Shown piece after piece: positions 3,640 to 31,650 of a DNA stretch of 32,500 nt; position 1 is the stretch's first letter; each line of letters begins with the position of its first letter. This DNA is from Neocallimastix lanati (nom. inval.) (lineage: Eukaryota; Neocallimastigomycota; Neocallimastigomycetes; Neocallimastigales; Neocallimastigaceae), in assembly GCA_016946835.1 (NCBI GenBank), contig JACVTC010000096.1:515001-547500 (forward strand), given 5' to 3'. The notes beneath the pieces were generated by a model, which did not search any database, was not told where the DNA came from, and saw nothing but the letters and a program-made list of their open reading frames with translations. A program made the translations under genes and the position numbers.

Positions 3640-4142
3640 TATAATTTATTTAAATTACATTTACTGACAGTTTCCCATTCATTATGGATTTGACAATGAG
3701 ATCGTGTAACAGTTTAATGAACAGCTTCGAATTTTAATTAATTTAAAGTTTTGTGTAACACAATTAAGAAATGTGGTTTTTGTTGCTGTTGTTGACCTTT
3801 TTAATATATATTAAATAAATTATTAAGAGTGAAAAAATAAACCAATAGTTTATATAGGACGATGTTCATCTTTTCAAGTGTTTTTTCCTATAAAGTGAAG
3901 TTGGTGTTCGCTTGTCATGGTAAGTATTCCTGTTGCTAGATTATATAATTGCTAGTGCAGAGAGCACTTGATTTGTGAGAAAATGAAGGTTCAATAAATC
4001 ACTTAAAAGAAGCCCGTCCTATAAAATGAAATATATGAATTGTCTTTTTTGTTAGCTTTGCTTAGAGAGAGGTCCTTGTCGACTCCGAAATGATATGGCA
4101 AAGAATCCAATATCCTCCCCTTTCGTTAATTACACAGACTAA
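3640..4142. other. Less AT-rich non-repetitive island, function unknown
   Basis: About 500 bp of mixed-composition sequence stand out sharply from the AT-rich flanks. No long open frame exists in any frame. TATAGGACG at 3853-3861 can pair with CGTCCTATA at 4015-4023, closing a loop of about 150 nt. The motif TCCTATAAARTGAA occurs twice (about 3887 and 4018). The right part is the first copy of the duplicated 116-nt element. On the plus strand a 25-codon frame starts at 3862 (MFIFSSVFSYKVKLVFACHG) and contains a good donor-like GTAAGT at about 3920; an acceptor-like TTTTGTTAG lies at about 4060. The island could therefore be a structured RNA gene, a small spliced gene or a decayed mobile element. 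Confidence 0.4.
3988..4103 (+). repeat. Unidentified 116-nt element, copy 1
   Basis: Runs from GGTTCAAT to GGCAAAG. It aligns without gaps to the reverse complement of 5121-5236, with 89 of 116 positions identical by hand count. Conserved blocks are GGTTCAAT, ATCACT, AAAAGAAGC, GTCTTT, CTTAGAGAGAG, GAAATG and GGCAAAG, separated by variable segments of equal length. No frame is open through both copies over the whole length. It might be a structured non-coding RNA, a short mobile element or a decayed gene family; I could not match it to a known snRNA, snoRNA, SRP, RNase P or tRNA pattern. The strand follows the GGTTCAAT-first orientation and is arbitrary. Confidence 0.6.
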
Positions 4143-5034: not shown

Positions 5035-5245
5035 GATTGGGACTGATGAGAGGAGAGGATAATAGGTCCTATCATCCTCTTCTCTAATCTTTTCATTAAA
5101 TGTATCAGACTCATTGGGCCCTTTGCCTTACCATTTCTTCGTCTACATAGATCTCTCTCTAAGAAAAGCATATATGAAAGACATTAACTATATGTCTTTT
5201 TATATGACAAGCTTCTTTTCAGTGATCAATTGAACCATCTAAAAA
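5035..5245 (-). repeat. Unidentified element, copy 2, with strong hairpin
   Basis: The core, 5121-5236 on the minus strand, is the second copy of the 116-nt element found at 3988-4103. Next to it, positions 5049-5085 form a strong stem-loop: 12 paired bases (one G-U), one A-C mismatch, four more pairs and a GTC loop. On the minus strand an open frame of about 57 codons starts at an ATG near 5173 and runs through the conserved part into the A-rich flank (it begins MLFLERDLCRRR). In copy 1 the equivalent frame shares scattered residues (LER..CR.RN..AK.P) but has no matching start. Most differences between copies are not at third codon positions, so coding is not favoured. Confidence 0.5.
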
Positions 5246-6289: not shown

Positions 6290-7268
6290 ATATTTATTAT
6301 TTAATATTCAATTATTTATTATTTATTATTTATTATTTATTATTTATTATTTATTATTTATTATTTATTAATAAATACTCTTTTTATTATTTATTATTAT
6401 TTATTATTTATTATTTATTATTTATTAATAAATACTCTTTTTATTATTTATTATTTATTACTTATTATTTATTATTTATTAATAAATACTCTTTTTATTA
6501 TTTATTATTTATTATTTATTATTTATTAATAAATACTCTTTTTATTATTTATTATTTATTATTTATTATTTATTATTTATTATTTATTATTTATTATTTA
6601 TTATTTATTATTTATTAATAAATACTCTTTTTATTATTTATTATTTATTATTTATTATTTATTAATAAATACTCTTTTTATTATTTATTATTTATTATTT
6701 ATTATTTATTATTTATTAATAAATACTCTTTTTATTATTTATTATTTATTATTTATTATTTATTATTTATTATTTATTAATAAATACTCTTTTTATTATT
6801 TATTATTTATTATTTATTATTTATTATTTATTATTTATTAATAAATACTCTTTTTATTATTTATTATTTATTATTTATTATTTATTATTTATTATTTATT
6901 AATAAATACTCTTTTTATTATTTATTATTTATTATTTATTATTTATTAATAAATACTCTTTTTATTATTTATTATTTATTATTTATTATTTATTAATAAA
7001 TACTCTTTTTATTATTTATTATTTATTATTTATTATTTATTAATAAATACTCTTTTTATTATTTATTATTTATTATTTATTATTTATTATTTATTATTTA
7101 TTATTTATTATTTATTATTTATTATTTATTATTTATTATTTATTATTTATTATTTATTATTTATTATTTATTATTTATTATTTATTATTTATTATTTATT
7201 ATTTATTATTTATTATTTATTATTTATTATTTATTATTTATTATTTATTAATAAATACTCTTTTTATT
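6290..7268. repeat. Heptamer satellite (TTATTTA)n with embedded ACTCTTTTT markers
   Basis: Nearly a kilobase of the 7-bp unit TTATTTA is interrupted 14 times by the segment AATAAATACTCTTTTT (ACTC starting at 6377, 6434, 6488, 6535, 6624, 6671, 6725, 6786, 6847, 6908, 6955, 7002, 7049 and 7257). Apart from the first interval (57), distances between markers are 47, 54, 61, 89 or 208, all equal to 7n+5. Open frames across it only translate the repeat (LLFIIYY strings) and are not genes. Confidence 0.95.
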
Positions 7269-8460
7269 CCGAATAACATACAATCTGAATATATATATTT
7301 TTTATATGTTGAATATTTAATATTTAAAATTTAATTATTTATTTTTTATTATTTATTATATATTACTTTTTATTTATTATTTATTTATAATCTATTATTA
7401 TTTATTATTTATTATTTAATTATTTATTATTTATTTATTTTCAATTATTTATTATACATTATTTATTTATTTATTATTTATTATTTAATTATTTTATTAT
7501 TTATTTTATAATCCATTATTTATTATTAATTATTTATTGTTTATTAGTTAATATTTAAGGGAACAGTGCGAATAATGCAGTTATGAACCTGTGAGTGTAA
7601 TGAATCCATATGGCGATATTTTATGCATAAATGCAATGAAGCAGCACCAAATAACATATAACGCTATTATTTATTATTCAACTATTATTTAATATTTATT
7701 ATTTATTATTTATTATTCAATTATTTATTATTTATTATTTAAATATTTATTATTTATTATTTATTATTCAATTATTTATTATTCAATTATTTATTATTAT
7801 TATTTATTATTTATTATTTATTATTTACTATTTATTATTCAATTATTTATTATTTAATTATTTATTATTTATTATTTATTATTCAATTATTTATTATTTA
7901 ATTATTTATTATTTAATTATTTGTTATTTAATTATTTATTATTCAATTATTTATTGTTCAATTATTTATTATTCATTTATTTATTATTCAATTATTTATT
8001 ATTTATTATTTAAATATTTATTATTTATTATTTATTATTCAATTATTTATTATTCAATTATTTTATTATTTATTATTATTTATTATTTATTATTTATTAT
8101 TCAATTATTTTATTATTTATTATTATTTATTATTTACTATTTATTATTCAATTATTTATTATTTAATTATTTATTATTTATTATTTATTATTCAATTATT
8201 TATTATTTAATTATTTATTATTTAATTATTTGTTATTTAATTATTTATTATTCAATTATTTATTGTTCAATTATTTATTATTCATTTATTTATTATTTAT
8301 TATTTATTATTTATTATTTAATTATTTATTATTCAATTATTTATTATTCAATTATTTATTATTCAATTATTTTATTATTTATTATTATTTATTATTTATT
8401 ATTTATTATTCAATTATTTTATTATTTATTATTATTTATTATTTATTATTTATTAATAAT
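7269..8460. repeat. Degenerate heptamer satellite, TTATTCAA variant
   Basis: Continuation of the TTATTTA array in which units alternate with TTATTCAATTA and TTAATTATT variants and lack the ACTCTTTTT marker. Blocks of about 230 bp recur: the order Att-Caa, tttaatta, ttgttattt, ttgttcaa seen near 7830-8000 reappears near 8130-8290, which indicates larger duplications on top of the heptamer. An unrelated island at 7557-7672 interrupts the array. No coding potential. Confidence 0.9.
7557..7672. other. Non-repeat island inside the satellite
   Basis: About 115 bp of mixed composition starting GGGAACAGTGCGAATAATGC and ending AACATATAACGC, flanked on both sides by heptamer repeats. No open frame of useful length, no tRNA-like fold, no obvious terminal repeats. 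It may be the relic of the sequence into which the satellite expanded, or an insertion. Confidence 0.5.
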
Positions 8461-10273
8461 TACTTTTTTTATTATTTATTTTTAATATATTATATAAAAT
8501 AAGATTCTTTATTAATTATTTATTAATAATCCACTTATTTTATATTATTCATATATAATGTCATATATTATTTAATTATCTTTGTACTATTCGATAATTT
8601 CAATTTTTAATTATTATTTAATTATTTGTTTCTGTTGATGCTTTTACTCCATTTTATAAATTATCATATTATTTTTATTTGGATATTTATTAAATTATTT
8701 TAACTTTATTATTTAAAAATTTATTTAATTATTGAATAATATTGAATAGTATTATTTAATATTTTATTATTTAAAATTGAATATTTCATTTATAATTATT
8801 TAATTATTTAAATTTTAATATTCAATATTTAAACATATATATAAAAGTTTAATTTATAATTAACTCTTTTAATGAATTTATTTTACTTTATTTTATTTTT
8901 ATTTTTTAATATTTAATTTTGATTTTTAATTTTTTTATAATTATTTATTTTATTTTTAAAAGATAAAAATAATAATAAAAATATAAATTAACTTATTTTT
9001 TTCAAGATACATAATTTTAATTTATTTTATTTCATAAATATTATAATTTATCTTTAATTCAATTGAATAAAAAAGCAAAAAAAAAAAAAAAAAATTGATG
9101 CAATATAATTGTATAATCAATAACAATAAATACAATAATATTAAATGAACTTACATAATATTATCGATATAAATAAATGAAAGGAAACGGTATATAAATA
9201 AGTGGAGTATAAAATTCTCTTCCAAAACCAAAAGATAAATATATATAAAAACGTAATACATTATTTTTTTTTATATTTTACTTATTATATAATTAATAAT
9301 ATTGACTATATTAAATAATTGTTCTTCTTTTCTTTCTTTCTTTCTTTTTTTTTTTTTTTTTTTTTGAAAAAAACTCAATAAAGGTAAAAATTATTTCAAT
9401 AATATAAGAAATAGTAATTTTCGAATTAATGATACAAATACAAAAAGAAATAAAAAAGCTATATTAAAATATATATATATATATTTATTTTTTAAACAAG
9501 TTATATAAAAGAAAAGTGACAAAACAATTATAATTTTATTAAGCATAATAAAAAATAATTTTTAAATGAACAAAACATAAAAGATTGTTAAATTTTAATG
9601 TTTGTTAAATAAATGAATTGAATAATTTTTATTATTATAAACTTGATTAGACTATTATTATCTGGATAGATAAATACAATAAAATAAATAAATAAATAAA
9701 TCTAAAGTAAATTTTAAAAATAAATAATTAAATAATTTAGTAAATAAGGGTTTTGAATTTATATTACAACAAAAAGCAAATAGTCATATATCACATATAG
9801 TATAAATGAAAAATATATTAATATATATATATGAATACAATAAATAAATTTAAATATTAATACTGAATACTATATATTAAATTAATCATAAATTTAATGC
9901 TTGAAACGATAGTTCTAAAAAACTAATTTATTTTTCAATTTTTTTAATATACTTTTCTAGGTTTTATAGAATATATTGAAACGATGTATTTATATTAATA
10001 AACATAGATATTATAATAAAATTTAGAATAAAGAAGTTGAAAAAAAAAAAATATATATATATATATATAAAAGAAAAAACAATAATTTATTTATTTTTCT
10101 AGAGTATTATTAATTTTGTCAAAAAAAATATATTTTTTTTAAAAAAATAATAATTAAAAAAAGCATACAAAATATTTAAACAAAATATAAATTAAGAAAC
10201 CAACTAAGTTGTAAAAAAAATAAAAAAAAAAAATAAAAATATAAAAGAAATAAACTTTCAAATAGAAAGAAAA

Positions 10274-10344: not shown

Positions 10345-10441
10345 ATGGGGTCTTTAGTATCAATTATGCAAGGTTCAAGTGAAAATGATCCAGATATTTA
10401 CTTAGATTTTGAAAGTATGTTATATTAACAATTGAGATAAA

Positions 10442-10487
<46 letters not shown>

Positions 10488-12056
10488 AGTTAAGAATTAT
10501 GAAAAATTTAATTATAGAACCCAATTCTAATATATAAAATCTATAAAATATTTTTCAATATATAATAATTTTAAAATATTTATTAAAATAAAGATTCACA
10601 ACCAACACCAGAAGAAGAACAATTATACCATTATGTTGTTGAACTTTTAAATCGATCCAATGCTATATTACAATCATTAAGACAATATACAGGATGTGGA
10701 GAACTTATACGAAAGGTATGTATATATATATATATATTTTTTTTTTTTTTAATAAATTAAAGAAGAAATAATAATTATAAAGTAGAAGAAGAGCCATAAA
10801 TTTAATTACATCATTATAATATATATATATATTACATAAAATATAGGCTATTTCAAATCCAAGTCCACAAACAGAAGAGGATGCTTGGAATGGTTTATGT
10901 CCATCAGCTGTAAAGCTTAAGAAGTATTATGAATTTTCTCAAAGAATAGAAGATATTTTCCCAAGAATTTTATATTTATTATGTATTGGAAATATTCCTC
11001 AAAATTTAGAAAAATATCAAGCTACCACTCGTAAATTAGCTGATTTATTGAATTTTGTACTTCAATTTGATGACTTAAAGGTACTTTATTATATTTCCTT
11101 AATTTTAAATAACGATTTCATTAAAATAGTAATAATAATAATAATAATAATAATTATTATTATATATATGTATATTTAAAAAATTAGTTTAATAAAATTT
11201 TTATTTTTTTATTTTATTTTATTTTATTTTATTATATTTAATATATATATATTAATTTAATATATATTAATACAATATATATTGTGTTCTCAATATTAGA
11301 TGACAAATCCTTCTATACAAAATGATTTTTCATATTATCGTCGTTTATTAAGTAGAGTCAAGAACAATTACAAGGTAAATAATTTTTTAATGTAATTTAT
11401 TAAAAAAAATTATATATATATATATATATATGTCAAAGATTAAATATTGAAAAATTATTTGTAAATTTTTGTAATAATAAATATAAATATTTTTTTCTTA
11501 TTTATAATTTAGATAAATAAGCAAAATATACCAGTTAATGATGAATTAGCTAATAGAATGTCTTTATTCTATGCTTATTCAACTCCAATGTTTAAGGCTG
11601 TAACTGATTCTACTTTAACTTTTGTTGACCCAGTAAGTTTAAATATAAATAATTTTAATATTTTGTTATTTACACACATTAAACATTAAACATTAATAAT
11701 TATCAATTTATTAATTTCCATTTTTTTTTAATTAACAATAAAAAAAAATTAATAATAAATTAACTATTTATTATTAATTTTTTGCTTATTTTGATATATA
11801 TATATATTTTCTTTTTATTTATTTATTTATTTTATCATCATTAATTAATAGAATAGTAAATCAAATGTTTCAGCTAGTCAAGTTGGTGAATGCTTGTCCT
11901 TATTAACTTGTATTTGTTATAATGCTGTTTCAAAATATAGAGTTCAGTCCCAACCAATGATTGCATTTTGTCTTCGTGTTATGGTTGGATGTATCGTTTT
12001 ATTTGACCATATTGATCCAGATGGTGCTTTTGTAAAGAATTCTAAGATTAATGTAT

Positions 12057-12093
<37 letters not shown>

Positions 12094-12460
12094 ATATATA
12101 AATATTTATGAATTTATTGCTATAATTAATGTTGTTGTTAATATATAGATGTTTGAGTTATAATTATAATTGATATAAGATTTTTATTATATTTCTTTTA
12201 ATTTTTATTATAAATATATAATTTTTAATTTTATATTTTTTAACAGTAATCTAAAAATTTATATATATATATATATATAAATATATATGAATATATTATT
12301 AAAAATAATTATATTTAAAAAATAGATAAGAAGTTGTATTCGTTTAATACAAGGTTCAGCAGGTGTTGATGCCGATTCATTGTTAAATACAATTAGATTT
12401 ACTTCAAAGCATTTGAATGATGATACAACTCCAAAAAGTATAAAGAATTTATTAAACTAA
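10345..12460 (+). CDS. CYRI: CYRI (FAM49) family Rac1-binding protein
   Basis: Exons: 10345-10414, 10594-10715, 10847-11080, 11300-11374, 11513-11632, 11852-12052 and 12326-12460, giving 318 aa (about the animal family length of 324). CYRI proteins bind active Rac1 and oppose activation of the SCAR/WAVE complex at the leading edge. Visible hallmarks: N-terminal MGSLVS with Gly2 and Ser6, a plausible N-myristoylation signal; LDFENSQPT near residue 20; [13 protein letters not shown] near 95; [15 protein letters not shown] at 143-157, whose paired arginines (156-157) match the Rac-binding pair of mammalian [17 protein letters not shown]-like [25 protein letters not shown]; and a C-terminal [16 protein letters not shown] helix. 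The start is fixed by the myristoylation motif and family alignment. Intron 1 holds a poly-A run of about 45. The gene lies upstream of a RhoGEF and SCAR/WAVE. Confidence 0.96.
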
Positions 12461-15400
12461 TTTACTAATTACATAATTCTTTTTATTTTTGGATTTATAT
12501 AAATATAATTATTATCTTGTTTGGAGAAAAAAAAATAAAATAATAAAAAGAAGAAATAATAAGTTGCCTTTTTTTTTTTTATTTAATTATTATTATTTTT
12601 TTTTTTTTTTAAAAAAAAAAAAACTATTAAAAAAAAATCTATTAAAATCTGTAATCAAGTCAACATAAATTAATACTATAAAACGATTTTTTTTTTTTTT
12701 TAATTTTATTAAACTTTTTCAGTAATTTAAAATAAAATAAAAAGTAAAAGTATAATAGTATATACAATTTTATTTATACTTTATAATAAAAATAATGAAT
12801 AATTAAAAAGTATAAAAAATAAATTTATATATTTATTTTTATATGAGAATTTATAATTTTAATTTTTTATAAAATAAATAAATAAATAAAAAATAAATAA
12901 ATAAAAAATAAATATATAAATAAATAATAAATTAACATATTAAGGAATGACAGGTAAATAATAAATAATAATAGTAATAGTGAACAGAAATAGCAATAAT
13001 AATAATAAATATAAATAATAATGCAATAGTTGCAATAGTGAATAGAGAAAATAATATTAATAACTTCAATTACAATAATAAATAATAAAAATAGATAAAT
13101 ATTAATAATTAATAATAACTATTATAGTTAATTAAAAAAAATTTTTTATTTTTTTATTTTTTTTTTTTTTTTTTTGGTTATTGATTTTAATTAATATATA
13201 TTATTCCTTTTTTAGAAAATTAGTATAAATTTAATCCACCAATATTTTTTATTGAAAACTTTAAATTTATAATCACCATTTTTTTTTTTTAAATCTCCAA
13301 TCTATTATAAATGACTTTTAATAAAAAAAAAATATAATTGATTTCTTTACAAAATAATGTTAAATTAATAATAATGTTAATAATAGTAATAAAAAATTTT
13401 TTTGTTTCTTTTTAAAATAATGTTTGAATAATAATAATAAAAATAATAATAATAAAGCAACGACGACAATGACAATAACAATAATAAAAGGAAAAAAAAT
13501 CATTTATTTCTTTTCAAAATAATGTTATAATAATAATAATAATAATAATAATATTAATAATAATAATAATAATAATTATAATTATAATTATAATAGTAAT
13601 AATAAAAATTATAATAATTATTATAATAATTATAATAATAATAATAATAATAAAAAGACAATTCGTTTTTTTAGTTTACTTTATGTGATATAATGAATTT
13701 ATGCTTGTAAAGTTAATGTTTTTTAGATTAGCCTATATATATAATTATATATAATTATATTATTTTAATTTTTCTTTATTTTTATTTTAATATTATTTTT
13801 AGTATATATTTTTATTTTTTTTTATTTTTTTTTTTTTTTATTTTAAATTTAATTATTAAAAAATTCATAATTAAATATAACATATTAATATTTTTAAATT
13901 AATAATTCACTAACAAAAAAAAAAAAAAAAAAAAAAATTAAAAAAATAAAAAATATTTAAAATTTAAAATAGGTTGATAGCAATTGACATATAAATTAAA
14001 AAAAAAAAATTAATACCAATTTACAGAAAATTTTAAAAATATTTAATATATAACAGACGTAACTAACCAAAAAAATAAAAAGTACCTATTTTAGTTATAC
14101 ATATAATGTATAATTTATTGATTTGTTTAATTAAATGATTATAGAAAAAAGTATGCTAATAATGATAAATTTTTAAATCTAAATATTATAATATTACATG
14201 AAAATAAAAACTATTGTTAGAAAAAATAATAATAATAATAATAATAAAATAAAACTAAAAAAATTTTTTATAAAGAATCAAATAATAATACTTGTATTAA
14301 TTAATAAAAAAATAAAAATAAAACTAAAACTAAAAATTTTAGAAAAAAAAATAATAATAGTATTAATTATAACTTTGTTTTAATATATCAATATATAATA
14401 CAAAAGATAAAAAAATAAAACAGTTTATTGTTTAGATGTATAATATAAATGATTAAATTTAATTTTACTTTACTACCACAATTAAGGAATCTATACCATA
14501 CGAATAACTATAAAAATTATATATATTAAAAATATAATGTTATCTTCATTTAAAATATATGACCATGATAGTATAATTAATTAAAAAAATTCATCAAATT
14601 TATATTTTAAATAAGTTAAATATTATAATTAAATAATATAATTATACAAAATTAAAAGAAATTAATAACAAAAAAAAAAAAGGATGTAATTTTTTTTTAT
14701 TATATAATTGGATACAATAGAAATATACTCAATATATTTATTATATTTATTTATATTTATGGAAAATAAATAATAAAAAAATAAGGATATAATGATTAAT
14801 CAATAATCACCAATATTTATATATATATATATACATATATAAGATTTTTGAAAGGTTGGAAACTATATTCATAACAGTATTAGTAAATTAATATATTTAA
14901 TAAATATTAGTATATTTTATAGATGATATATTTTTTTAAATTTTATAAAATAAAATAATGAAGTAATTAAAGAATATATAGAAATAATAATAATAATATA
15001 CATAGAAATAATAATAATATATAGAGAAATAATAATAATAATAATAAAAAACAAAAAGAAAAATAAAATAAATTAATTTATAAATTAGGAAGAAATATAT
15101 ATATAAATTGACATAGAACAAAAATTTGAACTCTCAATTATTACTGTTATAAAAATTTTTGATATAATATTACACAAAGTACCATCAAAGATCAAAGAAT
15201 AATAAATAAAATATAATACATTGAAATATAGAAACAAAATTTCTAATTAATTTTATAATAAATAAATAAATAATATTAAACATAGCATAAATAATTAAAT
15301 ATTAAAAAAATAATAGTAATTATAAAAGAAGAAATAAAAATAAAATTAAAAAAAAAAAAATGTGGATTCAGTGTAAATCAATAATTTATAAAAAAAAAAT

Positions 15401-15536
15401 TTTTTTTTTCTTTTTTTTATTTTATAAAAGTGACTAGCATATTAGTATAATTAATGAATATAAAAATTTTTATTTTTATATAATAACAAGAATATTAGAA
15501 ATATGGATTTAATATAAATATTATGAATTAAAGAGA

Positions 15537-15630
<94 letters not shown>

Positions 15631-16134
15631 GATTTATACAATAAAAGTTATAATAAAATTTGACAGCATCATAATACAATTTTTTGTTCAATAATTATAA
15701 TAAAAATATTTCTTTTTGAACTTTGAGAAAATTATTTTAAATAAAGATTAAAAGTGAAGAATATCATTAGAGAACATTAAAATCAACTAATATAGAAAGT
15801 GCTAAACAATAAAAAATAAAAGAAAACATTATAAAAAAATATATATGAAATTGAATAATATTTACTAACATATTATTTTTTTCTTTTTCTTTATATAATA
15901 TTAAATTAATATAACTCCTTAAGTATATTATTGTTATATACAATATTCAAATAATAATTAATTCATTATAAAATTCAGGAGATTCAAAAATCAATATAGA
16001 AATATAAAAAACATAAATTAAAAATAATATATTAATATTTATTTTACCAATCTTCTATGTATGTATATAATAACATTTATATATTAATATATAAATATTA
16101 ATATAAATATTTATATAAAAAAGGTAAAATAAGC
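12461..16134. other. Long AT-rich intergenic region
   Basis: About 3.7 kb between CYRI and the RhoGEF region with no recognisable gene. It contains AAT/ATA microsatellites (near 13527-13640 and a long one at 15538-15630), homopolymer runs and no stretch of exon-like composition. Short frames here translate to N, I, K and Y only and are compositional artefacts. Confidence 0.6.
15538..15630. repeat. (ATA)n microsatellite, about 31 units
   Basis: Uninterrupted trinucleotide repeat in intergenic DNA; likely length-polymorphic. Confidence 0.95.
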
Positions 16135-16242
16135 ATGGATGATGAAATAAATGATTATACTTATGTACGAGAAAATTTAGTGCATTCTGACAATAGTTTG
16201 TGTGAAGATTCGCAACTATCAATAGCTGTATTGATCAGATAA
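16135..16242 (+). CDS. Candidate small ORF or 5' exon of the RhoGEF
   Basis: A 35-codon frame, MDDEINDYTYVRENLVHSDN and onward, has ordinary amino acid composition in a region where everything else reads as N, K, I, Y and F. A donor-like GTATTG at 16228 follows the codon GCT in phase 0. At 17234 an acceptor-like AAAAG precedes an open frame (ENNIKRTKAF) that is in frame with the RhoGEF ATG at 17291 and open through to it. This could therefore be the RhoGEF first exon with an intron of about 1 kb. That intron would be longer than any other here and the donor is weak, so an independent micro-ORF or chance remains possible. Confidence 0.35.
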   Translation: MDDEINDYTYVRENLVHSDNSLCEDSQLSIAVLIR

Positions 16243-16558
16243 TTAATTTTTATTTTATATATATATTTTATTTTATTTTTTATATTTTATTATATTATTA
16301 TGATTATTATAATTATAATTATTATTATAATTTTTTTTATAGTTGATTTAATTTAAAATTAATTTTTTTTTTTTTTTTTTTTTTTATGTTAAGTTTTAAA
16401 AAAAAAAAAAAGTTATATATAGTAAATTTTTTTTAATTATTATTATAATTAATTAAATAACAGATTTAATTATTATTAACAAAAATTAGTAAATTTAAAT
16501 TTATTTTTATATTTATATCACCATTTCTATTTCTATTTTTATTTTCTATATTTTATGA

Positions 16559-16602
<44 letters not shown>

Positions 16603-17290
16603 GATAATTATAAACTTTAATAGTATATAAAAAATTTTTTTATCATTATTTATTTAATTAATATTAAAATTATTAAAAAAAAAAAAATTTTTTTTCTTAA
16701 ATTTTCATTTTTTTTTTATAAATAATTTAAAACATTATATATTATATAAAAATATCATATTTTATCTCATACATTTAAAAATATATAAAAGAAAATAATA
16801 ATCTTTTAATAATTAATATTAATAAACTTTTTTATTTTTTTTTATATGTATAATTTTGTATAATTGTTAATTTTTATTTATATAATTAATATTAATATAT
16901 ATTTTTTTTATCTTATAAAACATTTTCTATATGTATTTTATGCAACGAAAAAATAAAAAATTTTTTACTTAAAAAAAAAAAAAAATAAAATACAAAATAC
17001 AATAAAATCATATATAATATATATATAATATATATAATATTTATTCCATCAATATCAAAATAAATATCCAAAACAATACAAAATAAATAAAATAAATACC
17101 TAAATATTCTTTAATTTGATATATCGCTTTCTTTTTTTTTTTTTTTTTTTTATTTTATTTTATTTTATTTTTTTTGTTCTTGTTTTTTTGTTTTCTCTCT
17201 TTTTATTATTTTTTTATTTCTCTAAATATATAAAAGGAAAATAATATTAAAAGAACAAAAGCATTTCAAAATATAAATGATCCATTTAAT
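16243..17290. promoter_or_regulatory. Upstream region of RhoGEF with pyrimidine-rich tract
   Basis: AT-rich DNA with several poly-T runs (about 16366-16385, 16567-16596 and 17132-17150), followed at 17151-17222 by a T-rich tract with TTTTCTCTCT. This strongly T-biased block directly before the coding region probably marks the core promoter or 5' UTR, or the pyrimidine tract of an intron if the 16135 exon is real. No defined box can be assigned. Confidence 0.3.
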
Positions 17291-18227
17291 ATGTCAATTC
17301 AAGAAACAAACGCAGATGGAATAAATATTCCAACTTTAAAAATAACAAAAGAAAATGATGAATTTTTAGAAACGGATAATATGGTATTACAACCTCAGGG
17401 AAATGAGCGTACATTAAAATCGATGTTATTCGATACCGAGGAAGACAAGGAAAGGTATGTAAGGCAAAATTATGCTGCTAAAAAAATTCAAAATCAATTT
17501 AGACAATACAAGTAATAATCATTAAACTATATTAATAATAATATTATTAATATGATTATTATTATTATTATTATTATTATTTATTGTATTAGTTAGAAAA
17601 TATTATTAAATATTATATAAGATAATATAAGATAATATAATATAATAATATAAAATATATATAAATATATAATATAATTATATTTATTTATTTTTTCTGG
17701 AATTTTTAATAAAAAAAATAATAATAATTCAATATATATATATATATATAATTTATATATTAAAAATATTATTTTTGTATATTATATTTATACTAATTAA
17801 ATAATGAAAAATTTCATTAATAAAATAATAATTTTTAACAAAAATCGAAATAATTAAATAAATATAATTATAATAATAATAATTATAATTATAAACATAT
17901 AATATATAATACACAAAGAACTCTGGTGGATAATACTATTTTTGTACAAACTCGTTTAAGAACAAAATTAGCAAAGAAAGAATACAAACAAATGAAAGTG
18001 ATTAAAAAATTGAGTGCACAAAGAACTCAAGTAGTAATGGAATTATATGCAACTGAAATTAATTATGTTTCTAATTTAGAAAAAATTGTTAACGTAATAA
18101 TATAACCTCCTATTATTTTTATTTCTATTTTATTTTACTTTTTTACTTTTACATATTAAAAATTTTTTCAATATGAAAGAATAATAATAATATAATAAAT
18201 ATATATTTGTATATTTATATAAAAGAA

Positions 18228-18278
<51 letters not shown>

Positions 18279-19473
18279 AACATTTATACTTAATATATAT
18301 TTCTTTTATTATATAAAAATTATTAGTGTTTTATGAAACCTTTAAGGGCTATTTTTGATGAATCGAAAAAGGGAGGAATTAGTAAGTTTATAATATGATA
18401 AATTTAAATATATATTATTCTTTATATAAGATAATTGTTTTATAATAACAAGAAGAAAAGAAATTAAAAAAAAAAAAAAAAAAAAGGCATCATAAATGAT
18501 AATTAATTTTTTTTTTTTAAAAAAATATTATATATATTTATATATATATATATATATAAATCATTAATGACTATTAATTTTTGTAGCAAAGGAAAATATT
18601 GATAGTATATTCTGTAATATAGAAGATATTTTAGTAAGACATCAAAATTTTCTGAAAAAGTTAAAACAAGTTGTTGACCAGTGGAGTAATGAAACTCTGC
18701 TCTCACCTGTAATTATTAAAAAAATAATAATAATAATAAAAATAATACATATACTTTTTCAAATAAATAATATATATGTATATATATACTTCAAATTAAT
18801 AATATATATATAATTCTTTTTTTTTGAATTTCAAAAAATGATATTTATTTAATATATATTGATTGTATAAACAATTTTACTCTCTTTATCATTTTCACTT
18901 ATATCGATAGTTGTTTGAAAACATTGTAAGTTGATTTTTAAACAATTAAAATATAAATAAAATAATATTTTTAATTTGTATGCTTTTGTATATATATAAA
19001 TATAATAATAAATATTTTAATAAACATTTTACTTAAATGTATTATTTTTATTAAATTTTATTAAAAAAAAATTATTTAAATAGCATGAATATATTTCTTT
19101 CTATATTCCATATTTTAATAATTATGAAAATTCATATGATACTATAGAAAAATGTATGAAGGTTCCAGCATTTGAAGAGTCAATTAAGATGGTTGAAGGT
19201 GTTAAAAAATTAGAAAGAAATGATTTAAAATCTTTATTAATTCTTCCGGTTCAAAGGTCATTATTTAAATAATATATATTAATAAATAATATATTAATTA
19301 TAATATTTTTTTTTTTTTTTTAAAAAAAATATTAAAAATAAGTATATATATTTGTTAAATTTATAATATTATTTTATTTTTTATTTAATATTTAATTAGA
19401 ATTCCAAGATACATTTTATATTTAAAAGTAAGAAATTGAATATTTTTATATTCATAAGAAAATATTTTATAAT

Positions 19474-19506
<33 letters not shown>

Positions 19507-19527
19507 CAAATTCAAATATAATATAAA

Positions 19528-19562
<35 letters not shown>

Positions 19563-19912
19563 TATTATTATTATTTTATCATAAACATATATTAATTTAA
19601 ATATTTTAAATAATTAAAAAAAAAAAACTTTAATTTATTTAATACCATTAAAGGAAATTTTGAAACACACATGGCCATCTCATCCAGACTATGATGGATT
19701 AAAAATAGAAATTTCAAAAATTGATGAAGATATAAAGGTCTTAAATAGATGGAAAAAATTCTCGGAAAGCAAAGGAACAATTGAATTACTTCAAAACCAA
19801 ATTAAAAGACAAAATGTAAATAACTTTATTCATTTTTTTTTATTTTATATATATTTCTTATTATAATTAAAACTTATTTAAATTTTTTTATTTAAAACAA
19901 CAACAACAACAA

Positions 19913-19963
<51 letters not shown>

Positions 19964-21723
19964 AGAAGTAGAATTAAAAGTAGAATTAGAAAAATAAATG
20001 TAAATAGAAATAGAAATAGAAATAAATTAAAAATAATATATATATATATTAGAAAAAAAATAATAAAAATATTGAACAAAAATTATACTAATATAATAAT
20101 AATTTCTGATATTTAATTAAATTAATATTATATGTTCATTATAATTAATATAATCTAAATGTTTATATTTAAATAAATAAATAATTAATATATGTTATTT
20201 TTATTACTAATAATAGATTGAAGTTAAGGGTAAAAAATATATATCCGAAGGACAAGTATTATACCAATATTCTACAATGAAAGAATCATTAAAGGCCCCA
20301 CTTCCTTCTTATATATATTTATTTAATGATATGTTATTACTTACAAAGAATTCTGTTAGTAAATTTACAAGAATATCCAGATTATCCATTATTAAAGCTA
20401 TACCTTTAAATGGTATTCAAATTGGAGATCTTAGCCAAACCAGTAATCCTGGTATATATAACTAATTTTTTTTTTTTTTAAAATAATAATAATAATAATA
20501 ATAATAATGAAAGAAATTTATTTTTTAAATTATTTTTATAATAATTAAATATACTTTTTTAATATTTATTTAAATTTATAATATTATATATACAAAAAAA
20601 AAATTCAAAATTTTATTTTATTTGTATTAAAATATAATATATATATATATGTAATATATTTTAATAAATAATTAATTTTTTTTTATTAGAATTTCAACAT
20701 TATTTATCCCTTACTATGCAGGATCATTCTATATTAACTCTTTATTTAGAAAATAATGAACAAAAAGATAAATGGTATGATGATTTTCAACGTGTTCTTT
20801 ATCATATTCATTCCGATATGTCAGACTTAATGACCATTGGAGATGATGAAACTTCATTTCCTAATAGTCAAACTGTTAGTATGAATGGTGATGATGAAAA
20901 AGATACACCTAGAACTTTACATAGTAGTAGATTAAGTGAAGTAGATGAATCAGACATTAATTCTCCAACTATAAAACCATTTAAAATAAATTCTGCAATT
21001 GAGAAGAAAAAGGATGATTACTTCTCTGAAGAGGAATCCCCAAGATCTCCTGATAAAAAAAGAGATACAACTAAAAGGAAGAAGGGTAAAGAAAAAAACT
21101 CACCTGATGGAAAAGAAAAAGGTTTCTTCTCCCATATGAAGAACTTATTTGATGAAAAATTGGAAAGAGGTAGTGTGGAGAGTTTGAATAGTCCAGTAGA
21201 TAAGAAACTTTCAAAATCAAATAGAAAATATAAATCTAAAGATAGTCTTATTATTAACAATTTTAATGAAGGAGATTCCACCATTTATGGTAGTTACAAT
21301 AGTATTGTAAGTGAAACCGATGGAGCTTTTCGACCAAGAAGTAGAAGTAAAAAGTTCAGTATTCGTGATAATACCTTTGGAAGTCAACATAGCGTTGACA
21401 AAGGAGACGAAGACAAAGACAGTACCAGTACTAGGGTTAGAGATAATACAGAAACGAGTTCAATACTAACTAATGATTACAATCCAGGAGATGAACATAT
21501 ACATAGTAATGAAATAAGAAATAATAATCCTATAAAAGAAGATGAGGGTGAATTAAAAGATGATGACAAATCTAATATATCTGGAAGGAGAAATGGTCAA
21601 GGAAATATAATTATTGATCAAAAACAATTAAATGAATTAATTAATAAAGAAGGATTAGAAGAAACATCTCCAGAAGGAGTATCCCCAAATATATATAAAA
21701 CTCCAGTTAGCGAAAATGAATAA
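17291..21723 (+). CDS. Rho guanine nucleotide exchange factor (IQ-DH-PH)
   Basis: Exons: 17291-17511, 17919-18093, 18327-18381, 18587-18708, 18911-18925, 19084-19256, 19400-19427, 19654-19815, 20217-20451 and 20690-21723; 739 aa, all phases consistent. Residues 60-74 (YAAKKIQNQFRQYK) form an IQ-type calmodulin-binding motif. The DH domain spans about 108-300: RTQVVMELYATEINYVSNLE at its start, then CFMKPL, and LLILPVQRIPRYILYLK in the conserved QR-P-RY helix. A PH domain spans about 318-438: an EGQVLYQYS strand, YIYLFNDMLLLTK, and the C-terminal helix NEQKDKWYDDFQRVL. The last 300 residues are Ser/Lys/Asp-rich and probably disordered, with SP sites and a short amphipathic stretch FFSHMKNLFDEKL at about 541-553. 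DH-PH proteins catalyse GDP/GTP exchange on Rho-family GTPases; the target (Rac, Cdc42 or Rho) cannot be read from sequence, but the CYRI and SCAR neighbours make Rac attractive. Two exons are only 15 and 28 nt. The N-terminus may extend upstream. Confidence 0.93.
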
Positions 21724-21949
21724 AAAAAAAAAAAAGGAAAAAAAAAAAAAAAAAAAGGAAAAAAAGAAAAAATAAAATAAAAGATGAATATAAATTAATA
21801 TAATTAAAATCATAAAAAAATAAAATATAAATAATAGATTATTTTGATTTTAAAAAAAAAAAAAAAAGTAAAGAATAAAAATAAAAATAAAAATATATAT
21901 ATATAAATAATATTAAAATATTATTATTAAATATATTCATATATATTAA

Positions 21950-21994
<45 letters not shown>

Positions 21995-23016
21995 AAGATA
22001 AAATGAATATGATATTGATAAATCATTTATAATATTTTTTATATATTAAACAAAAAAAAATATTATATATTATAAACTATCTTTTTTTATTTTTCTTTTT
22101 TTTTTTTTCTTTTTTTTTTTTAAATATTTAAATTATTGAAAAAAAATTTTTTTTTTCTATTATATAACTATATAAAAATTATCTTTATACTAATATATAT
22201 TATCTGTATTTTTTTTATTTTATTTTATTTTTATTTTATTTTTTTTTTTTTTTTTTTTTAGAATATTAATATGTTAATAATAAATATATAAAAATTTGAA
22301 GTATCAACAAAAAATTAAAAAGAAATTAATTATTAAAGTAGAAATAAATAAATAAAAAAAAAATAATAAAAAAAAAAAAGATAAAAAATTAAAATAAAAA
22401 ATAAAAATATTATAATAAAAAAAAAAATAAAAATAAAAAAAATAAAAAAAAAAAAAAAAAAGAAATTAAATAGTAATGACAAATAATAATAATTAATAAT
22501 AAAAAATCCCTAAATCAAATATTATTATTTTATTTTATTATATTTTATTTTGTTAATAAAATAAATAATATTAATAATAATAGAAAAAAATATAAAATAT
22601 AAAATATTAATTAATAAATTAGAATTAGAATTATCATGTAATATAATTGATAATTTTTTTTTTACAAAAAAAAAACTCTTTTATTAATAATCACATAAAA
22701 CAATCAATTAAAAAGAATATTTATAATAATTTTTTTCGTTCGAGTAAACTTTTTTTTAAAAAAAAGTTTACTTCAAATTTAAACAAATTAAATAATAATA
22801 TGAATAAATAATATTATATATCTTTTATCTAAAAATTTAAAATTTGTTACATATAATATATAGTATGTGTCAATCTTTATTGATCTTTATTGGATTTTTT
22901 AATATATATAATATAAACAAGAAGTATATGAATGAATACTTTTATCTCATTTTATATTGATATAATAATAATAATAACAATAATTTAATAATTATTGAAT
23001 TAAATAAAACATTTTT

Positions 23017-23056
<40 letters not shown>

Positions 23057-23416
23057 AAAAAAATCTACATATTAATATTATATTAATGAATAAAAATATT
23101 CATTGTATTATAAGTTTATAATACTTAAATAATTAATTACCTAATTTTCTAATATGTTATAAATTTATTTTAAATCTTTTTTTTTTTATTTTATTTTATT
23201 TTATCTTAATAAAAAATATTAGAAAATTATATATGATAACAAGTTTAATATATACATATATCTTGTATTATATTTTTGTTGGCTTCGAATTTATTTTATT
23301 TATTTATTTTATTTTATTTTATTTTTTTTTTTTTTTTTTTAATTTTTTCTTTGTTACTATTGTTGTTTATTTATTAAATTATTATAAAAATATAATAATT
23401 TTCAAAAAGGAGTGGT
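21724..23416. other. Convergent intergenic region between RhoGEF and SCAR
   Basis: Both flanking genes end here. The sequence is A/T homopolymers (A runs at about 21951-21991, T runs at about 22087-22118, 22240-22259 and 23022-23052) and short AT repeats, with no gene. A perfect palindrome lies at 22743-22772. Frames near 23233 are phenylalanine-rich poly-T artefacts. Confidence 0.6.
22743..22772. terminator. Perfect 30-bp palindrome between convergent genes
   Basis: AGTAAAC followed by eight T, then eight A followed by GTTTACT: each 15-base arm is the exact reverse complement of the other, with no loop. It sits between the 3' ends of two convergent genes, about 1.0 kb from one stop codon and 0.65 kb from the other. 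It could form a cruciform or a hairpin in either transcript. A role in transcript separation is inference. Confidence 0.35.
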
Positions 23417-23789
23417 TTAATCCCAGTCATCATCAGAGTCTGAATCCGATTCTATTAAAATATTAATTTAAATAAAAATTAAATATTAACAATAATAAAA
23501 TAAATATCATATATTCTTCAAAAAAAAAGGGAAAAAATTACTAATAAATAAAACTTTTACCTTCTGATTCACTAGAATCACTATCTTCCAAAGCAACTCT
23601 TCTAATTAATAATGCAGCAACATCATTTCTACCTTCTAAATCATCTTTTTGTTTTCTATTTTCATTAATTTCAACTTTTCTAAGTTTAAACTATTTTTTT
23701 TTTTAATATTAAATAATTATTATTAATAAAATTATTTTAATATAATATATATATAATATTAAATATAATTAAATAAATTTAAATAATAA

Positions 23790-23867
<78 letters not shown>

Positions 23868-26330
23868 TTTAAAAATAAAATAAAATAAAATAGATTTCTA
23901 AAAAATACATACACCACCCATCTTAATATTACTTAATAAATCATCTCTTGAGTCAGTTGGAGCAAGATTATTACTTGTTGCTGGTTTAAGTTGTGGTCTT
24001 TGTTGTATAGCACTTAATAAAGAATTTGTATTTGATGGTGGAAGTGGTGCACCACCTGATGGAGGTGGTGGTGGTGGTGGAGCATTTGTAGCCATTGGGG
24101 GTGGAGGAGGTGGTGGTGGGGCATTAACAGCTGGTGGAGGTGGTGGTGGTGGAGCGTTTGTAGCAGCTGGAACTTGTGGAACTTGTGGCATACTCATAAA
24201 TTGAGGTGGTGGTGGTGCACCTTGGTTTAAAGCTGGTGGTGGTGGTACCGCTGTGGAATTCATGTTTGACATAGTAGGCACGGATGGTGGCATAAAAACA
24301 GATGGAGGATGTGGTACACTTGATGTGGTGTTGCTACTTTGATGTGCCGTTTCTGATTCATGAGTACTTGATTGAGACATTCTACTTAATCTAGATTCTC
24401 TCTTCCTCTCTTGATCTAATTTTTGAGTAATAACTTCACCATCTTTATTATATTGCTTTTTAGAAATTTCATTAATTTTCTTTTCTTTACGTAACTTGAC
24501 CTAACATTATTTATTATATATTTATTTATCATGATTATAATTATATTTTTGATTACGTTTTTAAATTTATGATAATATTATTAATCAGTTATTTATTATT
24601 TTTATTTTTATTATGATTTATGATTTATAATTTATGATTTATGATTTATATATATATATATATATTTTAATATTGATTTATAATAAATTTAATATTATAT
24701 TAATTATATATATAAATATATATATATTTATATATATGAATTTAAAAATAAATAAAACATAATTAGTTCATTTTCTTTTTTTTTCTTTTTTTTTTTTTTT
24801 AAAAAAAAAAATACTATTTTATTTTTGATTATTAATAATTAATATACCTTATCCTTCTTTCTTTCTTCTTTCCTCTTCTTTTTAATTTCAATATCTTTAT
24901 TCATTTTATCAGTATATTCTTCAAGGAAAAAGTTTGGATTGGAATAAAGCTTTAAATATATAATTCAAATAAGAATAAATTATTATATCCAATTCAAAAA
25001 TTAAAAATAAAAAAATAAAAATTAAAAAATTAAAAAATTAAAAAAAAAAAAGAAAAGATAAAAATAAAAATAAAAATAAAAACTATTTATTATAAATTAT
25101 GTTAATTTCTAATTTTTATACTTTAGAACATTTATTTCCATCGGTTCTTAAGTTATCAATTTCTGTAAAATCTGGTAAATTTTCACATTTTTGATAAGCT
25201 TCACTAATAGCAAATGGTTGTGACTGCTTGGTAAAAAGATTTGCTTCTGGAACATTATCTTGTTGTTTAAATTCCAACACTTTTTATATAAAAATAATAA
25301 TAAAAATAATATTATTGATATTAACTATTGTTATCTAAATCTAAATCTAAATATATATAATTATATCATTTCTTTTAAAAATAATATATATATATATATA
25401 CATTCAGGATTAGGAGTATTTGTTACTGTCATCATTCCCATTTTCTTTTCAACTTGGCCAATATTACTATTAATTGCATTAATTCTTGCTTTAATATTGT
25501 TAATTCTTTCAGAAGTTTCATTAGTTTGCTTTATTAAATCTTTAATGTATTGGTAAATATTAAATGACAATATTTTCAATAATCATTCACAAATATTATA
25601 TCAAAGAATAATTTTAAAAAATATAGAAAATAGTATAGTATATATATATATATATGCATTATAAGAACAAAAATTAATTTTCTATTTGATAATTTAAATA
25701 TATAGGTACAAAATATATTAATAATATAACATTATATGATCTCATATAACTTTTTTTTTTTTTTTTTTTTTTTTTTTAGTTTTGCTTTGTTACTTGTTTA
25801 TTTATTTGTATTAAAAAAAATATTGATATTAACCAGTAAATAATTCATGTGCATATTGAGAGATATTACTCAATTGACCTAATAATTGCGTTAATTGAAT
25901 TATATTCGTCTAAATGATATAGATATTTCAAAGTTTATATTTATATAGAATTTGATAGATAATATTTATATATATATATATATATATAAGATTTAATATA
26001 TAATATATCATAATAATTATAAATAAAATATTAAAAGTAAATATATATATATATATATATATAAGATTTAATATATAATATGACATAATAATTATAAATA
26101 AAATATTAAAAGTAAATATATATAAATATATATATATATATATATTGAAGCGTTTTGTTAATAATACTAAAGTAAAATTGTTGTTTATGAATGCTAACTT
26201 TTTTAAAAGATTGTTCCCTTGTAATTGATGGCTCTTGATTAAGTTGAGGAGAAATTAACGATTCTAATGTCAATTCCTTTTTCTCTGTAACAGGTAATGG
26301 GACTTCAATCTTACGTCTCGTTAATGGCAT
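23417..26330 (-). CDS. SCAR: SCAR/WAVE family Arp2/3 activator
   Basis: Exons on the minus strand: 26330-26199, 25909-25834, 25539-25402, 25279-25122, 24949-24848, 24500-23913, 23690-23561 and 23451-23417; 452 aa, phases all consistent. SCAR/WAVE activates Arp2/3 downstream of Rac as part of the five-subunit WAVE complex. N-terminal SCAR homology domain (about 1-170): MPLTRRKIEV like MPLVKRNIEP of animal WAVE, LTQLLGQLSNISQYAHELF, a coiled-coil heptad stretch ERINNIKARINAINSNIGQVE, then EAYQKCENLP. Exon 5 has LYSNPNFFLEEYTDKM, the family's Y-T/S-NPS-FF site, followed by a Lys/Arg-rich basic segment. A proline-rich region with runs of 7-8 prolines (about 270-375) would bind profilin and SH3 proteins. 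The C-terminus is a WH2 (RDDLLSNIKMGGFKLRKVE), a connector (NDVAALLIRRVALEDSDS) and an acidic tail ending in DDDWD with the key tryptophan. Exons 1 and 2 use unusual GTTAGC and GTTAAT donors. No WASP-type GBD or WH1 is present. Confidence 0.95.
23788..23866. repeat. (AAT)n microsatellite in SCAR intron 6
   Basis: About 26 uninterrupted trinucleotide units between the exon carrying the proline-rich/WH2 region and the connector exon. Expected to vary in length; no effect on coding. Confidence 0.95.
25988..26137. repeat. 75-bp tandem duplication in SCAR intron 1
   Basis: Two nearly identical 75-bp units start at 25988 and 26063, each beginning AAGATTTAATATATAATAT and ending in a TA dinucleotide run. 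They differ mainly at ATCATAA versus GACATAA and in TA-run length. A recent local duplication within the intron. Confidence 0.85.
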
Positions 26331-28440: not shown

Positions 28441-29493
28441 TATAAAAATTAAGTAAATAAACAAATAAACAAATAATAAATAGTAAATAAATAAAACTTT
28501 ATAAATATAATTTATTGAATAAAAAACTTTATATAGATTTGAATATAATTTATTTATATTATATTAAATAGATTTATGATAAATGATTTAATTAAAAACA
28601 AATTCTAAAAAAAAAGGATGATATAAAAATCAATATTATTTTTATTTTTTTTATTTTTATTTTCTTTTTTTATTCAATTTTTATTGTTTTTTCTATATTT
28701 GAATTTAATAAAAGTATAATTTAAAAAAAAAAAAGTAAAAAATAAATAAATAAATAAATATAGTAGTAATTCAAAAAAGTACGTATTCTATGTAAGATTG
28801 ACTTATAATAATTAAAAAAAGAAATAAATAAAGGAATAAATCATTTAATATAAAAGTAAATAAAATTATAAAGTGGTTGGAAAAAAAAATAATAAAAAAA
28901 ATAATCTGATGTTAATAATTAATATTATATAATAATAAATAAATTAAATTAAGTTTCAAGCGATTAAAACAAAAAATGTTAACTGACGCGTATTGAGATT
29001 GAAATATAAAGTTTAAAAAAAGAATTAAATATTCTGAGTTAAATATAATGTACATAGAAAGTTAAAAATAAAAAAAATAAATAAAATAAAAATAAAAATA
29101 AAAAAAAAAGAAAGGGCGTGGAATTGACAAAGTATGTGGGTAATGGGAAAGGAAAATTATAATATTAAATATTTTGTAGAAAAGAAAGGAATTCAAATAT
29201 ATCAAAATAAAAAAAAAAGAAAATTAAATAATTTTGAGGTGAATCATTCGTTATAATAAGTACCATACTTAGTGATTAAAAGACATGAAACGTAAAAAAA
29301 AATAAATTAAAAAAGAATTATAAACAATTATAAAGAATGATCTAAACTTAAAAAGAATAAAACAAATAAATATTAAAAGGAAAAAAAGAAAAAACAATAT
29401 TGTAATAAATTAAATTGATTTGATTTATATTGATCTAAATAGAAAATTGTAAAGGAAATATATTAATTGTTGTATTATAACAATAAAAATTAG
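28441..29493 (+). promoter_or_regulatory. Upstream region of the SR protein gene
   Basis: From about 28960 the sequence becomes less AT-rich, with patches such as AACTGACGCGTATTGAG (about 28980), GGGCGTGGAATTGACAAAG (about 29114), GGTGAATCATTCG (about 29238) and AAGTACCATACTTAGTG (about 29259, an imperfect palindrome). No open frame is seen, so this is probably promoter and 5' UTR. Specific factor sites cannot be named. Confidence 0.35.
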
Positions 29494-31650
29494 ATGTCTG
29501 GATCAAGAATCTATATTGGACATCTCTCTGGAAGAGCTGAAAAGAGAGATGTTGAAAAGGTATGATAATATTTATTTAAATTGATTTATATAACTAATAT
29601 AACTAAATCAATTTTAAATTTGAAAAATTTCAATATTAAATAGTTTTTCAAAGAATACGGTGAAATCAGAGAAATTAACTTAAAGAATGGTAAATATTAA
29701 ATAATAATAATATTAATAAAATAAATATATTTTGTGTAATAACACAATTAAAATAATATCACCAAACTAAATGTTTTTTTTTAATTGTTTTTGATTTTTT
29801 TTTTCTATATTAATAAATAGGCTTTGGTTTTGTGGTTAGTTGATATATTTGGTATACTTCTTTTGTGTTTTCATTTTGTCTTTTTCCTAAATAAAAAACT
29901 ACTTAGACTTAGATAGATTCAAACTACTTTTTTTGGTTAAAGAATGTTTTAGTGGTTATAGTGATTTAGTGGTTTTAGTTCAAAAAAGTTTTTATTTTTT
30001 TTTTTAAAATGAAACAAGAAATTGTGTACGTTCTTAGTAATTAAATATTAACTCTCTTAGGAATTTAAAGATTATCGTGATGCTGAAGACGCCGTAAAAG
30101 ATTGTAATGGAAGAGAATTCTTCAACCATAGGTAAATGAAAAATATTATTTAAGGAATATTTTGATTATTGAAATAAATTTTAATTTTATTATAATTTAA
30201 AAAAAAAAAAAGAATTATTGTTGAAATTGCCAAGGGTGAAAGAAGAGGAAGAAGAGATTATGACAGAAGGGATTATGATAGGTATTTATTTATTATTGTA
30301 TATTTGTTAAAGAAATTTAAATATTAATTTATAGTAATATTAATATTTATAATTATTATTCATAAATTTAGTAGACGTAATAATAATGCTCCACAAAGAA
30401 CAAATAACAGAATTTATGTTGAAAACATTGCTTCTGATGTTAGCTGGCAAGTAAGTTATTTAAATTTTTTTAAAAAAATATATAGAAATATATTAATATT
30501 AATGATTTAATATAAAAATTATTAATTATATTTTATTTGTGTTATAGGATTTAAAAGATTTCTTCAGATCAGCCGGTAGAGTTACTTTTGCCGATGCTCA
30601 TAAGAGAAATGAAGGAGAAGGGTAATTATATAAAATTAATTAATATATATATAAATAATAAAAAATATTGTTAAATAATACATAATTTTATTTAAATAAT
30701 TAAATATAATTTAATAATAATTATTTATTTGTATAATAGTATTGTTGAATTTGAATCTTATGATGATGTTAAAGAAGCACTTCGCACTCTTGATCGTGCT
30801 GAATTAAGAGGACAAAAAATTTACTTAAAGGATGTAAGTTATTTGTTTTTTTATAAAATTATTTTTAACAATAACAAAAGAAAAAAATTTTTTAAAGTTT
30901 TATTATTTTATTAAAGTTTTGTTTTTTTTTTATTTTATTTTTTTTATTTATTTATCTTGTTTTTTATTTTTTCTTTTCTTTTTTTTTTTAATTATTAATA
31001 ATTATTTAGTAATTATTTGAAAAATAAATATAAATATATATATTAATTCAAAAATACTTTAATGGTTTATATTATTAATTATTAATCATAATTATTATTA
31101 TTATATTAAAAAAATGTAGGGTTCAGGTTCAAGACGCTATAGCAACAGCCGTAGATACAGTAGAAGTAGATCAAGATCCAGATCCAGAAGAAGTTACTCA
31201 AGAAATAGAAGATATTCACCAAGAAGATCTGATAGATCCTCTAGAAGATCCAGATCCAGAAGTAGATCCAGAAGTAGATCTGCCTCAAGAACTAGATCCA
31301 GATCTAGATCCAGATCCAATTCTAGATCTAGCAGATTTAGAGATCAAAGTAGATCCCGTTCACCATCTCAAAATTATAATGATAAGGATAATAACAATGA
31401 TAATCGTTCTCCATCACAAGGTTATAACGATAAGGATAACAATAACAACGATAACCGCTCTCGCTCTCGCTCTCGTTCTCGTTCCCGTTCTCGTTCTCAA
31501 TCCCGTTCTCCACGTTCTCCACGTTCTCGTTCCCATTCTCGTTCTCGTTCACAATCTAAGTCACCAGAAAGACAATCTGGTAATTCACCACGTGAAGCAT
31601 CACATTCTGTTGAACGTCGACAATCTAGATCCCCAGAAAAAACTGATTAA
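29494..31650 (+). CDS. SR splicing factor, two RRMs plus RS domain (SRSF4/5/6 type)
   Basis: Exons: 29494-29559, 29644-29689, 29821-29834, 30061-30131, 30213-30281, 30372-30450, 30548-30621, 30740-30833 and 31120-31650; 347 aa. RRM1 (about 4-75) has RNP2 RIYIGHL and RNP1 GFGFVEF, the latter split over a 14-nt exon. A Gly/Arg/Asp linker follows. RRM2 (about 100-171) is the SR-type pseudo-RRM with the diagnostic SWQDLKD heptapeptide and the ADAHKRNEGEGIVEF stretch that places it with SRSF4/5/6 and fungal Srp2 rather than SRSF1. The RS domain (172-347) is rich in RS, SR and SP dipeptides, expected targets of SRPK/CLK kinases. SR proteins bind exonic enhancers and recruit U1 and U2AF in the nucleus; a need for them fits the many short introns here. 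The RS domain contains a duplicated QxYNDKDNNNxNDNRS linker and switches from AGA to CGT/CGC arginine codons after it. Confidence 0.95.

Follow-up and report, generated by a model that had tools for sequence, protein, structure and literature searches.

Consecutive CYRI, RhoGEF and SCAR/WAVE genes in the anaerobic fungus Neocallimastix lanati: orthologues of a conserved actin pathway, probably adjacent by contingency

When Rac-GTP acts on the WAVE complex, the tail of SCAR is exposed to Arp2/3. According to the accessible text of PMC7955166 and PMC8305917, this action goes through CYFIP, and CYRI competes for Rac-GTP. CYRI-B, also known as FAM49B, is there described as part of a negative loop on Rac1 and SCAR/WAVE (Yelland 2021, PMC7955166). 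Chytrid zoospores with both WASP and SCAR are reported to crawl by pseudopods (Fritz-Laylin 2017, accessible text of PMC5461030). The present analysis concerns a stretch of 32,500 nucleotides from the anaerobic fungus Neocallimastix lanati, on which genes for a CYRI protein, a Dbl-type Rho exchange factor (RhoGEF, here also GEF) and a SCAR/WAVE protein are neighbours. This whole stretch is called the window. In the contig numbering of its home assembly (GCA_016946835.1; 199 Mb, 762 contigs) it is C759:515001-547500.

An earlier note on this DNA took the three genes for a cluster, possibly conserved for co-expression. A plainer reading is quite probable: the three genes are unremarkable orthologues of members of the conserved Rac-SCAR actin pathway that became adjacent by contingency, and the adjacency is historical and without function. 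This is because the contig C757 carries a duplicated sister of the block, and in the searched part of that sister CYRI and its flanks are found, but neither GEF nor SCAR is.

The introns of the three gene models (Table 1) were placed by hand, from the genomic sequence alone. All 23 introns in these models (6 in CYRI, 10 in GEF and 7 in SCAR) run from GT to AG and keep the frame. Coding regions have a GC content of 28-34%, against 9.7% in the remainder of 9001-29400, which makes exons easy to tell. The span of the trio is bounded by two ATGs, that of CYRI at 10345 and that of SCAR at 26330 on the minus strand. The least certain exon is the first of GEF (16135-16227), which lies ahead of a 1,009-bp intron; exon 2 has an in-frame ATG.

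A codon-usage scan with these same three genes as its training set was run over the window and found no threshold-passing coding segment in 12460-16123 and none in 21723-23417, so the three genes are taken to be consecutive. From 26352 to the next gene at 29494 its only signal was at 29109-29153, where weak segments on the two strands overlap. CYRI and GEF stand in tandem with a gap of 3,674 bp, GEF and SCAR converge with a tail-to-tail gap of 1,693 bp, and SCAR is head to head with a gene for an SR-type protein, with 3.2 kb between. No pair among CYRI, GEF and SCAR has a 5' region in common. Any co-regulation would need to work at the level of a chromosomal domain. The earlier claim of three complete, consecutive and physically linked genes thus holds for the spliced models.

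Table 1. Genes of the trio and their neighbour, in window positions.
Feature	Position	Strand	Model	Evidence or remark
CYRI/FAM49 gene	10345..12460	+	7 exons, 318 aa	PF07159, CYRI-B match, 12/13 Rac-interface residues
Dbl-type RhoGEF gene (DH-PH, putative IQ, charged low-complexity tail)	16135..21723	+	11 exons, 788 aa	RhoGEF 148 bits; ECT2, P-Rex1, BCR, intersectin, Vav relatives
SCAR/WAVE gene (N-terminal WAVE homology domain, basic and polyproline regions, WH2-central-acidic tail)	23417..26330	-	8 exons, 452 aa	WAVE1 match
SR-type splicing factor gene (two RRM stretches, RS tail)	29494..31650	+		divergent neighbour of SCAR

The identity of the CYRI protein is clear. Pfam finds PF07159 (DUF1394) at 377.4 bits in residues 17-314, covering positions 1-301 of the 301 of the profile, and a PDB search matches the CYRI-B structure at E 6.7e-85. 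As test residues, 13 positions were used that the accessible text of PMC7955166 names as Rac contacts of CYRI-B or as shared interface; all are identical here except Q68, which is S. The RR pair that had been pointed out before is indeed present, R156/R157 corresponding to R160/R161 of CYRI-B. The protein starts with MGSLVS, which fits the myristoylation consensus MGxxxS and makes it a candidate for N-terminal myristoylation. A consensus myristoylation site has been noted for CYRI (accessible text of PMC6682259). No CYRI relative was confirmed in viral contigs (28 pattern matches with a single-protein query, 493 with a two-row alignment query) or in contigs of prokaryote genomes (138 and 251, respectively).

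The SCAR protein matches WAVE1 at E 5.5e-25 in a PDB search, in two stretches. Residues 45-207 align to WAVE1 30-186, which means that the N-terminal WAVE homology domain is present, and residues 384-444 align to the WH2-central-acidic tail, with DDDWD as the C-terminus. The WH2-connector-acidic tail that had been claimed is therefore borne out by the alignment; the Pfam WH2 match alone (20.5 bits) is below its cut-off of 23.1. As far as sequence can tell, CYRI and SCAR retain the residues and domains that the known Rac-SCAR axis requires.

The exchange factor had been described as an IQ-DH-PH protein, and this stands for DH and PH. The DH domain (RhoGEF, PF00621) scores 148.2 bits over residues 161-337. 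The PH match, at 24.5 bits, is just below the cut-off of 25.1 and borderline on its own, but it follows the DH domain. The IQ motif (IQNQFRQYK) is putative, seen by eye only, and Pfam IQ had no match at E 0.1.

The best solved relatives of this GEF are ECT2, P-Rex1, BCR, intersectin and Vav, which we take to comprise exchange factors acting on RhoA, on Rac and on Cdc42. Given relatives of such mixed specificity, the window GEF, which the earlier note suggested to be a Rac activator, is no more than a candidate for that role. The RASGRF1 subfamily was considered, but a match of 101 bits (32% over 218 aa, to a provisional segment of RASGRF1) is hardly above that of ECT2 (95 bits, 33% over 201 aa), and no subfamily is claimed. 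An isoleucine at the putative equivalent of Tiam1 I1187 was also considered as a sign of specificity and dropped as not decisive.

In the whole 199-Mb genome SCAR has one detected locus, with matches on C759 only. The same goes for the window GEF, whose high-identity matches are all on C759; other DH proteins are at most 32% identical. CYRI has three loci, on C759, C757 and C257. The third type is also carried by C700, a 10.7-kb contig with 99.6% DNA identity to C257 over 7.6 kb, which is probably an unmerged copy of it. A further PF07159 match, on C699, adjoins CYFIP matches and is ascribed to the CYFIP gene.

The CYRI gene on C757, the closest paralogue of the one in the window, is intact. 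Its seven exon lengths are the same as those in the window, and 284 of 319 aligned positions are identical (89%, stop included). Non-synonymous divergence (dN) between the two is 0.062 and synonymous divergence (dS) 0.548, for a ratio of about 0.11, and both copies look constrained by this measure. The 12 interface residues, out of 13, that the window protein retains are also present in the C757 protein and in the exon fragments of the C257 type.

C759:525-563 kb and C757:654-685 kb form collinear blocks whose detected gene content differs, with GEF and SCAR on C759 only. Besides CYRI, the pairs are fragments of the SR protein (76% identical), of a protein with PPGG motifs (86% over 93 aa) and, in opposite orientation, of an RMDK protein (73% over 106 aa). 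A weak fifth match involves a protein starting with MDNP (31 aa, E 0.004). On C757 the first gene identified beyond CYRI is the paralogue of the SR-protein gene. To the left of CYRI, at a distance of about 17.5 kb, is a gene that encodes a CBM_10 domain and an esterase domain; this gene and the extreme AT content are in keeping with an anaerobic gut fungus.

The gap between CYRI and the SR gene is 14,354 bp on C757, of which 9,354 bp were searched, versus 17.0 kb on C759, where it holds GEF and SCAR. Searching the retrieved paralogous sequence of C757, C257 and C700 with GEF and SCAR by tblastn gave no row at E 10. The same commands on the window, as a positive control, gave 13 rows for GEF and 10 for SCAR. 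In the searched C757 gap alone, GEF had three rows (E 0.41, 1.2 and 2.1) and SCAR one (E 1.9 or 4.5); this search was run with changed settings in a reduced search space, and its short, AT-rich rows are taken as chance. Two coding-like segments are found on the minus strand of the searched gap, at 657736-657897 and 658770-658991.

Elsewhere in the genome, some RhoGEF matches come in look-alike pairs of similar score and frame length (C223/C290 and C49/C738). Together with the collinear blocks, these pairs hint at a large or whole-genome duplication.

The other genes of the pathway that were found are dispersed. A Rac1-like gene, 82% identical to a provisional sequence of human Rac1, is on C741, CYFIP is on C699 and Nap1 on C246. 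Weak matches to the WH1 domain on C201, C157 and C68 (E 1.4e-5 to 3.1e-4) are putative WASP genes at most. Abi had no match in a search of the genome, and 14 controls were equally silent. RhoGEF domains are found at 47 loci or more, the window GEF and at least 46 elsewhere; all 50 match rows were merged to this number, and such counts are lower bounds, although a gene would be counted twice if its fragments lay more than 5 kb from each other. For the GTPases, 16 of the 39 match rows (27-46% identity) were judged Ras-like or Rab-like by eye and dropped before loci were counted.

The window supplies three pairs of loci within 20 kb, versus about 0.5 expected, and no other two of the resulting 72 pathway loci are that close. 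Within 50 kb there are 4 pairs versus 1.3 expected, and within 100 kb 5 versus 2.6. The extra pair within 50 kb consists of Nap1 and a Rho-family GTPase gene, at 1.19 and 1.24 Mb of C246, 47 kb apart.

The roles of the three proteins would presumably be those of the known axis. A Dbl exchange factor would load a Rho-family GTPase with GTP. Rac-GTP would then bind CYFIP in the WAVE complex, so that the tail of SCAR would be freed for Arp2/3, and CYRI would compete for Rac-GTP and limit this activation. The pathway is presumably used in the crawling zoospore. Each of the three genes has its own 5' region.

Several things weigh against an adjacency without function. Part of the sister gap, 5 kb at C757:662501-667500, is outside the search, and a SCAR copy or most of GEF could sit there. 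The linkage may also be old and conserved, gene order having been compared within one genome. And the adjacency is rare under random placement of 71 loci (C700, nearly a copy of C257, was not counted): any three loci fall within 16 kb in 0.0010 of placements, three of different classes, no more than one of them a GEF, in 0.00019, and a CYRI falls within 14 kb of SCAR in 0.00038. At about 0.1% of random placements the linkage is unusual for this pathway, but the triple was chosen after the fact. These figures apply to one pathway, and across the many pathways open to notice a single such triple would not be surprising. They do not exclude a function of the adjacency. Among the titles and abstract openings listed by literature searches, none of them aimed at gene order, there was no report of linkage of CYRI and SCAR; its absence from print is not claimed.

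One could still hold that the linkage was selected for co-expression in the zoospore, through a shared chromatin domain and not a shared promoter. That all three products belong to one known pathway, and that their adjacency is rare for this pathway, speaks for such a functional cluster. The tandem and convergent orientation does not, nor does the dispersal of Rac, CYFIP and Nap1, and the linkage is unseen in the searched portion of the sister block even though the CYRI there looks constrained. With many pathways to choose from as well, this explanation is improbable. That the linkage is conserved for co-expression, as had been proposed, is not supported: no 5' region is shared among the three, no GEF or SCAR is detected in the searched part of the sister, and the other pathway genes found are scattered. 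A co-expression cluster is not established, and is weakened by the sister block. A stronger form is even less probable, namely a co-regulated module of activator, effector and brake in anaerobic fungi, made of a Rac-specific GEF, SCAR and CYRI, with the C757 CYRI freed for another expression pattern.

If contingency is the explanation, the history of the blocks can be told in two ways. The order CYRI-GEF-SCAR-SR may predate the duplication and have persisted by inertia, with GEF and SCAR lost from C757. This has an even chance of being right: the flanks are collinear, the gap on C757 is still 14.4 kb, and a single locus was detected for each of GEF and SCAR; yet the 9.4 kb searched hold no convincing remnant of either gene. 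Alternatively, the insertion of GEF and SCAR between CYRI and SR on C759 may have followed the duplication. The lack of any trace in the searched C757 gap fits this, as does the abundance of retroelement-like frames left of the window. Two oppositely oriented genes would however need a joint insertion or two separate ones, and the many introns in both models speak against retroposition. Insertion is on balance unlikely. Least probable of all is that C757 and C759 are diverged alleles, with the missing genes a matter of haplotype variation or assembly. The size of the genome and the pairing of some RhoGEF matches would fit this, but the two CYRI copies differ in 11% of amino acids, with a dS of about 0.55, whereas C700 and C257, which do look like unmerged copies, are nearly identical.

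Useful for now is the finding that much of the crawling toolkit is present in an anaerobic fungus: CYRI at three loci, SCAR, CYFIP, Nap1, WH1-domain loci, Rac and about 47 RhoGEF loci. Should the linkage turn out to be conserved, an unstudied GEF would become a candidate Rac activator for the pseudopods of early-diverging fungi, and the trio a rare eukaryotic signalling cluster.

Upstream of CYRI, at 6291-8493, is a 2.2-kb, very AT-rich tandem array with the unit TATTTAT. At 3985-4111 and 5113-5239, 1.0 kb apart, lies a 127-nt inverted repeat (76% complementary), possibly the ends of a degenerate DNA transposon. On the minus strand at 242-1805, a coding signal in several segments is rich in Cys and repeats YYGWENN-like motifs; it has no Pfam match, and by eye the motifs resemble divergent fungal dockerin-like repeats. 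Left of the window, C759:480-512 kb appears by eye to be a nest of reading frames like those of long terminal repeat retrotransposons.

One of the known systems closest to the locus is the chytrid signature of alpha-motility, WASP plus SCAR (PMC5461030): SCAR is present here, along with the three weak WH1-domain loci. That signature concerns the presence of genes and not their order, and in its accessible text the strings neocallimast, piromyces, orpinomyces and anaeromyces do not occur. Measured against CYRI-B/FAM49B, the window CYRI is 45% identical over its full length and shares the RR pair and nearly all of the listed interface; it differs in having S at position 68 and in being one of three CYRI loci. 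The GEF resembles Dbl-family RhoGEFs in its DH domain, with the identity to ECT2 given above, and in the PH-like region that follows, and differs from them in its weak IQ motif and long charged C-terminal tail. Finally, the window SCAR aligns with the WAVE1 chains of 7USC and 3P8C at both its N-terminal domain and its tail; unlike them it starts with 44 residues that do not align, and has a putative extra WH2-like stretch, seen by eye only, ahead of the aligned WH2.

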